27,995 nt of DNA from a virus. The notes beneath the pieces are model-generated. The model was given only the letters and a program-made list of their open reading frames with translations, made no database searches and was not told where the DNA came from. The position numbers and the translations under genes were made by a program. Position 1 is the first letter of the stretch, and every line of letters starts with the position of its first letter. This document shows, in pieces, positions 2,116 to 5,483 of the stretch. The stretch lies in IMG/VR virus record IMGVR_UViG_3300043449_001408, positions 1-27,995 of that record. One strand, 5' to 3'.

Positions 2116-2147
2116 TTTGGAAATAAATTTTAGTTCCTTATCTTTAC
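2116..2147 (+). promoter_or_regulatory. Promoter for the small structured RNA
   Basis: TTTG at 2116-2119, 19 bases, then TATCTTTAC at 2139-2147. This is the Bacteroidota -33/-7 architecture with the C-ending -7 box used elsewhere in this window. The expected transcription start is near 2151, exactly where the first RNA hairpin begins. The identical TATCTTTAC occurs at 2850. Confidence 0.7.
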
Positions 2148-2150
2148 ACC

Positions 2151-2246
2151 GTAAATCCAATTCTTTAGAGGAGTATTGAATTGGGTTTGATAACGCAAAC
2201 CCCTGCGAATATTAAGCCCACGCAACTCCTCTTGTGTGGGTTTTTT
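2151..2246 (+). ncRNA. Structured small RNA with intrinsic terminator (candidate)
   Basis: About 95 nt run from the predicted start to a T6 tract, with no plausible ORF. Hairpin 1 pairs 2153-2163 with 2178-2188 (11 bp, one G-U) and has a 14-base loop holding AGAGGAGT (2167-2174). A competing hairpin pairs GGGTTTG (2183-2189) with CAAACCC (2196-2202) and shares bases with the 3' arm of hairpin 1. The terminator pairs CCCACGCAA (2217-2225) with TTGTGTGGG (2232-2240), loop CTCCTC, then T6 (2241-2246). The hairpin 1 loop is complementary over 8 bases to ACTCCTCT (2225-2232), which spans the terminator loop. This could be a kissing-loop RNA, an attenuator or a regulatory sRNA. Confidence 0.7.
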
Positions 2247-2258
2247 ATTTGCAAGTAG

Positions 2259-2325
2259 TCGCCTACCTCTCAAAGTCCAGAGTCCAATGGGGTGCTTTGC
2301 ACGAATACTGTTAAATGATAGGCGA
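2259..2325 (+). other. Foldable element with three-way-junction potential
   Basis: TCGCCTA (2259-2265) pairs with TAGGCGA (2319-2325), enclosing two small hairpins: CTCT/AGAG at 2267-2282 and GTGC-TTT-GCAC at 2292-2302. It lies just downstream of the small-RNA terminator in the gene-poor region 1993-2631. No tRNA could be fitted to it. It may be structured RNA or a DNA site, but the pairing is short and could be chance. Confidence 0.3.
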
Positions 2326-2381
2326 GGATGTAACTTTTTCCCTTATCAGCCGCTTTCCGAAAACTAATGCGACGGAGAAAT

Positions 2382-2434
2382 GGTCGGAGGTTACCACCTC
2401 TTTTGGGGGGAGGGGGGGTAACTTTTGACTGACC
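2382..2434 (+). other. G-rich foldable segment (possible G-quadruplex or structured site)
   Basis: The segment holds G6-A-G7 at 2405-2418, flanked by complementary blocks GTTACC (2390-2395) and GGTAAC (2417-2422) and by GGTC (2382-2385) and GACC (2431-2434). An alternative local hairpin is GAGGT-TACC-ACCTC (2387-2400). A 37-residue ORF (2315-2428) crosses it but looks non-coding. Possible roles are a replication-associated site or an RNA structure. Confidence 0.35.
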
Positions 2435-2448
2435 GCAATCCTCAAATC

Positions 2449-2479
2449 TTTGCTCTGGAGAATATTAGTTGTATGTTAG
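2449..2479 (+). promoter_or_regulatory. Possible promoter, near-consensus Bacteroidota type
   Basis: TTTG at 2449-2452, 19 bases, then TATGTTAG at 2472-2479 (one mismatch to TAnnTTTG). Transcription from it would cover the small ORF at 2498 and both repeated hairpins, and read into 2632-2814. Confidence 0.4.
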
Positions 2480-5084: not shown

Positions 5085-5483
5085 ATGATAATTTACAAGG
5101 GATTCGTTTACAAGAAACACAAGCCAGTCCAAGCCACACCAGATATGATTATTGATGCTTGTTGCAAGTACTATGGTTGTACGAGAGACCAAATTAGTAG
5201 TAGTTTGCAATATAGGGAGAACGGCATCATACCGGCAAGACACTTGGCGATGTATATGATTAGAAAAATCAACGGATTGTCCTTGATTGAAATTGCAAAC
5301 CTATTTAGTAAAAAGGACCACAGTACAGCATTCAACGCAATTAAAAAAATAGAGACACAAATGGATTTGTATGACGACCTTCGGATTGCGTTTGATACTG
5401 TTCTAAAAACCATTAATGATGAAATTCAAAAAACCAACGGAGGAGGAGATGATATTGTTTTTCAAAGAGAAGGGAGTAGATAA
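5085..5483 (+). CDS. Orphan DnaA domain IV (origin-binding domain) protein
   Basis: The protein has 132 residues from the ATG at 5085, chosen because it follows the previous stop by one base and has an AGGGAG purine block about 5 bases upstream. Starts at 5031, 5055 or 5064 would overlap the HTH gene. Residues 51-86 match the DnaA C-terminal DNA-binding domain: ARHLAMYMIRKINGLSLIEI, then ANLFSKKDHSTAFNAI, including the KKDHST signature that contacts DnaA boxes. There is no AAA+ ATPase domain. It may bind the phage origin or host DnaA boxes, recruiting or competing with host DnaA. Downstream genes are primosome and helicase genes. Confidence 0.8.
   Translation: MIIYKGFVYKKHKPVQATPDMIIDACCKYYGCTRDQISSSLQYRENGIIPARHLAMYMIRKINGLSLIEIANLFSKKDHSTAFNAIKKIETQMDLYDDLRIAFDTVLKTINDEIQKTNGGGDDIVFQREGSR

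Follow-up and report, generated by a model that had tools for sequence, protein, structure and literature searches.

A candidate phage RNA family with exactly matched, variable hairpin loops ahead of exchangeable large noncoding RNAs

In ColE1 RNA I/RNA II and similar plasmid antisense systems, the hairpin loops, about 7 nt long and complementary throughout, diversify while the two partners stay matched. The P4 CI RNA and the C4 antisense immunity leaders follow another arrangement, in which a small RNA derived from a leader may pair with its own leader and steer termination. In packaging RNAs (pRNAs) of the phi29 type, the loops are about 4 nt long. A phi29-type pRNA is one phage RNA carrying two loops complementary to each other; from phage to phage, their sequences change and the structure is kept (PMC5340915). 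ROOL and GOLLD are large structured phage RNAs found near tRNAs, and they form kissing loops between molecules (PMC12286853). A further set of candidate RNAs from the human microbiome lies outside Rfam (PMC8040213).

Here, we describe a ~95-nt RNA module in a virus record of 27,995 bases, the whole of which is referred to below as the window. The module stands ahead of a large noncoding RNA, here called the cassette. With novelty judged against Rfam, it almost certainly represents a new RNA family whose loop-loop helix is real. Its matched loops and its constant place ahead of a large RNA, in many Bacteroidota-type phages, suggest a phage RNA system that has not been described before. Coordinates of the predicted features are collected in Table 1.

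Table 1. Predicted features of the RNA locus in the window
Feature	Position	Strand	Details
Promoter, Bacteroidota type	2116..2146	+	TTTG 2116-2119, 19-nt spacer, TATCTTTA 2139-2146
~95-nt RNA module	2151..2246	+	fold z -5.45; 63 homologous loci
H1, 5' hairpin	2153..2188	+	AAATCCAATTC 2153-2163 with GAATTGGGTTT 2178-2188, loop 2164-2177; stem covaries in relatives
Loop L	2167..2174	+	AGAGGAGT; exact complement of L' in 63/63 loci
H2, middle hairpin	2183..2219	+	GGGTTTGAT 2183-2191 with ATTAAGCCC 2211-2219, around CGCA/TGCG 2194-2207; inner-stem covariation
H3, terminator hairpin and T-tract	2213..2246	+	terminator scan; T-tract; stem 98.8% paired
Loop L'	2225..2232	+	ACTCCTCT; complementary to L, covaries in relatives
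Large structured RNA cassette, type i	2251..2466	+	68% identical to L040 over module and cassette; covarying helices; 36 loci

The module is predicted to begin at G2151 and to end within the T-tract. Its 96 nt have a folding energy of -34.7 kcal/mol, equalled by none of 200 shuffles, and the opposite strand folds less well (z = -2.6). The H1 stem consists of 11 pairs, one of them G-U, and encloses the 14-nt loop TTTAGAGGAGTATT. A second hairpin pairs GGGTTTG (2183-2189) with CAAACCC and has 2183-2188 in common with the first, and the terminator hairpin spans 2213-2244. An earlier note on this DNA had given the same coordinates, promoter, 11-bp first hairpin and second hairpin competing for 2183-2188, and all of these hold in the sequence.

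One relative, contig L040, was reached via its Erf-like protein; the alignment (68%) starts upstream of the promoter and continues for about 130 bases beyond the terminator, and the L040 loops are unlike those of the window, yet complementary to each other. Further relatives came from pattern scans of IMG/VR using parts of the element other than the loops, and loop pairing thus played no part in the selection; the true pattern gap in relatives is 17-21 nt. The homologous loci in IMG/VR phage contigs number 63, with 54 distinct sequences and 22 loop types, and 23 phage records have one module copy each when weak opposite-strand matches at the same place are left out. The first pattern match, L002, was rejected as a chance 19-mer. 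When the element region and three related loci were compared with annotated phages by BLAST, there were no matches, and a covariance-model search of 395 Bacteroidota genomes, run without a positive control and with only ten candidates scored per genome, found none.

The promoter, 5' hairpin, middle hairpin, terminator stem and T-tract are kept across the relatives, and the stems covary. TAnnTTTG, the known Bacteroidota -7 element and a motif in use in the Bacteroides literature, is exact in 45 of the 54 distinct copies and a close variant in the rest, at a fixed spacing to the element. In the window, TTTG and TATCTTTA, 19 nt apart, are of the Bacteroidota type and not sigma-70. The 9-bp outer form of H2 is 94-100% paired, and the T-tract has 6-7 T of 8 in every distinct copy (54/54). 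Because the promoter and T-tract are conserved and the stems hold G-U rather than A-C pairs, the RNA is assigned to the + strand. An inverted repeat acting at the DNA level was set aside, given the many G-U pairs in the + strand stems and the conserved promoter and T-tract. The identification of 2151-2246 as a real structured + strand RNA with its own promoter and terminator is supported.

The loops of the first hairpin and of the terminator are exact Watson-Crick complements at every locus, extending to the relatives what the earlier note had observed in the window for the terminator loop (2225-2232). The loops are 6, 7 or 8 nt long, and their length changes in step on both sides. By chance, two such loops would match exactly over 8 nt with a probability of ~2e-4, and the match at 63 of 63 loci in relatives is far beyond chance. 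Besides the window's own, 21 loop sequences occur among the relatives (e.g. GTTGCGG, GATGCAA and GTCTCAG). When covariation was tested on an alignment of 32 sequences, seven of seven loop-loop pairs had changed on both sides, and the covariation score was matched by none of 500 shuffles. Across the structure as a whole, pairing holds for 96.5% of cells and drops to 34-43% when the partner strand is shifted by one, two or three columns; by inspection, gap placement in copies with 6-nt loops accounts for the few loop cells left unpaired. G-U pairs are absent from the loop helix, as against 136 in the three stems, and the loop match is therefore kept exact. The variability of the loops is no greater than that of unconstrained spacers and parts of H2. 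The loop-loop pairing suggested in the earlier note is supported by these compensatory changes, and the uncompensated drift that it had named as contrary evidence was not seen. Self-pairing of the loops, over 6-8 bp, is very probably real.

Where the downstream RNA is at least 97% identical, the loops differ in 98 of 109 phage pairs, and loop type is independent of cassette type. Since the loops differ among close relatives and are untied to cassette type, their conserved partner is each other. Covariation is blind to whether such pairing occurs within one molecule or between molecules. That the loops are diversified yet exactly matched suggests recognition between copies; neutral compensatory drift or recombinational loop exchange could also have produced the diversity. 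Within 450 nt on the downstream side, L recurs at 12 loci and L' at 9, versus 7.6 and 5.7 expected, and such a third copy is not clearly supported.

The strands of the module can be arranged in more than one way. The conserved strands allow three arrangements: a row of three hairpins that includes the terminator, a rod, or a four-way junction in which two arms kiss. Pair counts and covariation do not discriminate among them. The minimum-free-energy fold of the window is a long rod with the loops paired as an internal helix, which is neither of the two states that the earlier note had described. The rod is the computed energy minimum in 22 of 54 copies and near the minimum in others, and the three-hairpin form has the lowest mean energy of the three on the alignment, kissing terms excluded. 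The four strands of the lower stems hardly vary and are pairable in two ways, and this invariance fits either a double pairing role of the strands or a tertiary contact. The alternative antiterminator strands are 97-100% able to pair, but they are almost invariant, so the alternative pairing has no covariation support. The proposed two-state switch may exist, but a static four-way junction explains the double pairing of the lower strands equally well.

Directly 3' of the module, a predicted large noncoding RNA is present at all 63 loci, so the module is not a small-RNA gene standing alone. The earlier note had missed the cassette. By sequence, the cassettes fall into five types (i, 36 loci; iiia, 6; iiib, 12; ii, 3; iv, 6), and a count of four or five classes is fair because iiia and iiib have a 5' motif in common. 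Type i contains helices that covary, and type iv folds into a stable consensus structure that shows a few compensatory changes. Scans seeded with types ii and iii found the module present at 3/3 and 6/6 loci. The type i scan yielded no testable locus without a module, the exceptions being, by inspection, a chance match (L109) and a contig edge (L105); L089 was placed from a separate comparison. Types i, iiib and iv share a single slot within one phage lineage, flanked by TerL on the upstream side and by a constant gene on the downstream side, and this is read as cassette exchange. A promoter-like TAnnTTTG lies between the terminator and the large RNA in about one third of loci, and the large RNA may therefore be transcribed alone, with read-through unneeded. 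On the best reading of these sequences, the ~95-nt RNA would be the 5' module of a two-part locus with exchangeable large noncoding RNAs.

Several other observations were made on the cassettes. Type i contains a short direct repeat, both copies of which change in step; in the window, the copies are GACGGAGAA near 2371 and TCTGGAGAA near 2453, and elsewhere the repeat reads GGAGTAG, GGTGCAG or GGACTGT (among L084, L088, L103, L107, L115, L123 and L126). The segment between the copies is able to pair with either one. At least three further unrelated large noncoding types occur behind the module (L133-L153, L114-L124, L135, L141, L146, L149), and among those compared, none matched Rfam at threshold. 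In L084, L089 and L152, tRNA-like sequences adjoin the module or sit between it and the large RNA; their acceptor and T-arm are present, their middle is unusual, and they are not called by ARAGORN. HNH endonuclease-like frames were noted beside the large RNA, on the downstream side of the cassette, in L107 (from a motif) and in L135 and L149 (from reading the sequence).

The genes of the window, as assigned with PHROGs, include an Erf-like annealing protein, an exonuclease, a DnaB-like helicase, a terminase large subunit, a tape measure protein and homing endonucleases; Pfam searches on ten window proteins added only NUMOD3, and the genes immediately upstream of the element had no family match. 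In other phages, the element is near TerL, a deoxynucleoside monophosphate kinase, or Erf, and TerL adjoins the module in only part of the family. A role as a timing regulator between lysis and replication, suggested in the earlier note, does not generalize, as the neighbours differ between phages. Judged by these neighbourhoods, the conserved unit is the RNA pair of module and large RNA, not a protein operon. Two similar hairpins, GGGGAGTGTAGAAACACCCCCCGAACC (2506-2532) and GGGGCGGCGTAGAAACGCACCCCGAACG (2591-2618), precede the window gene at 2632, and a second promoter-like TATCTTTACAG (2827-2862), which resembles the one at 2139, lies just before the gene at 2862.

In the mechanism that we propose, the ~95-nt RNA would be made from its own Bacteroidota-type promoter and would end at its intrinsic terminator. 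The paired loops would form a phage-specific recognition pair through which the RNA recognises copies of itself. Released 95-mers could then engage, via the loops, the nascent leader from a phage of their own type, and this contact would shift the balance between the terminator and the alternative pairing; the shifted balance would set the amount of downstream large RNA made. Trans recognition and read-through control are hypothesized here, and the statement as a whole (new RNA family, two-part locus, self-recognition and read-through control) is put forward tentatively, as quite possible. It overlaps with oligomer formation, a static fold and attenuation in cis, and these are not mutually exclusive. 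In one static fold, the H1 and H3 loops would kiss within one molecule to give a compact RNA for protein binding or 5'-end protection, which is possible but on the unlikely side. Its form would probably be a four-way junction, in which AATCC pairs with the 3' GGGTT and GGGTTTGAT with ATTARACCC, and the side arms are upper H1 and upper H3 with their loops kissing, a topology like that of the tRNA D-loop/T-loop. The cloverleaf pairs are 96.5% formed, their covariation support equals that of the three-hairpin model, and every invariant strand is used with no switch required. However, the junction lies ~5 kcal/mol above three hairpins by nearest-neighbour energies without kissing, fully paired 7-nt loops would normally be near-coaxial, judging from known kissing complexes, and hard to close in a molecule this small, and the different loops of close relatives are left unexplained.

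Pairing of L and L' between molecules would instead give dimers, rings or chains, with the fast-changing loops separating the assemblies of different phages. Two fully complementary loops of 6-8 nt on one RNA are a self-assembling layout, phi29-type pRNAs likewise keep their structure while their loop sequences differ (PMC5340915), and ROOL and GOLLD, phage RNAs by tRNA islands, use intermolecular kissing loops (PMC12286853); the large RNAs behind the module and the tRNA-like sequences in three loci are in keeping with this. Such homo-oligomers nevertheless have a limited probability, considering that pRNA, ROOL and GOLLD gave no Rfam match at threshold, that neither a three-way junction nor a packaging link was seen, and that TerL is adjacent in part of the family only. 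Attenuation in cis, with no trans partner, would have the terminator compete with a rod in which both terminator arms are engaged elsewhere and the loops are paired as an internal helix, so setting read-through into the large RNA. The energy of the rod (minimal in 22/54 copies and near minimum in others), the compatibility of the four lower strands with both states, and the constant linkage of module and large RNA argue for it, but H1 forms before the terminator emerges and would have to be displaced by the rod in time, and the large RNA possibly has a separate promoter; we consider this fairly unlikely. The earlier note had raised pairing of the CUCCUC loop with purine-rich mRNA sites; on this view, the module would be a free antisense small RNA directed at ribosome-binding sites. 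The window loop does resemble an anti-Shine-Dalgarno sequence, and GGAGGAGGAG is present at 5439-5448. This targeting fails, however, because the loop sequence is not conserved: it differs in nearly all relatives, which carry the 21 other sequences, and a third L/L' copy is not clear within the 450 nt that follow. It is highly improbable.

On a wider reading, as a phage self-recognition RNA system, a constant 95-nt scaffold with hypervariable, self-matched loops might serve as an RNA identity tag that marks RNA from the same phage type, controlling or assembling the exchangeable cassette; this fuller proposal is more doubtful than plausible at present. A system of this kind would serve competition, exclusion or particle assembly in mixed infection. 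The locus is a compact, easily mutated system for asking why phages carry large structured RNAs and whether they use RNA loops as identity tags toward one another.

Searches of the window and ten related loci against Rfam 15, including ROOL, GOLLD, pRNA and C4, gave no match at the gathering threshold. The near-matches trpB, Hrs10 and LhrC were rejected as far below threshold; the best of them, the trpB ncRNA motif RF04312 (30.3 bits versus a threshold of 59), is alike in outline, with a long 5' hairpin, a spacer and a terminator. Compared with P4 CI RNA/C4, which the module does not match in Rfam, the module has its complementary parts in the two loops of a single 95-nt RNA. Loop pairs that change fast yet stay matched are a signature of RNA-RNA recognition known in plasmid copy control and packaging RNA. 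ColE1 RNA I/RNA II share with the module fully complementary hairpin loops of ~7 nt, matched here at every locus, but their loops lie on opposite-strand RNAs, whereas both loops of the module are on one transcript. The likeness to phi29-type pRNA is in the matched, phage-specific loops, of which the module has 22 types, all matched; size and fold differ, the loops of the module are 7 nt long, it lacks an Rfam match, and it is not constantly linked to packaging genes. ROOL and GOLLD match neither module nor cassettes in Rfam, and the present cassettes are shorter (~200-400 nt), with several unrelated types behind one constant module. What is new relative to these systems is such a loop pair inside one phage RNA, ahead of unrelated large RNAs that appear to swap in one slot.
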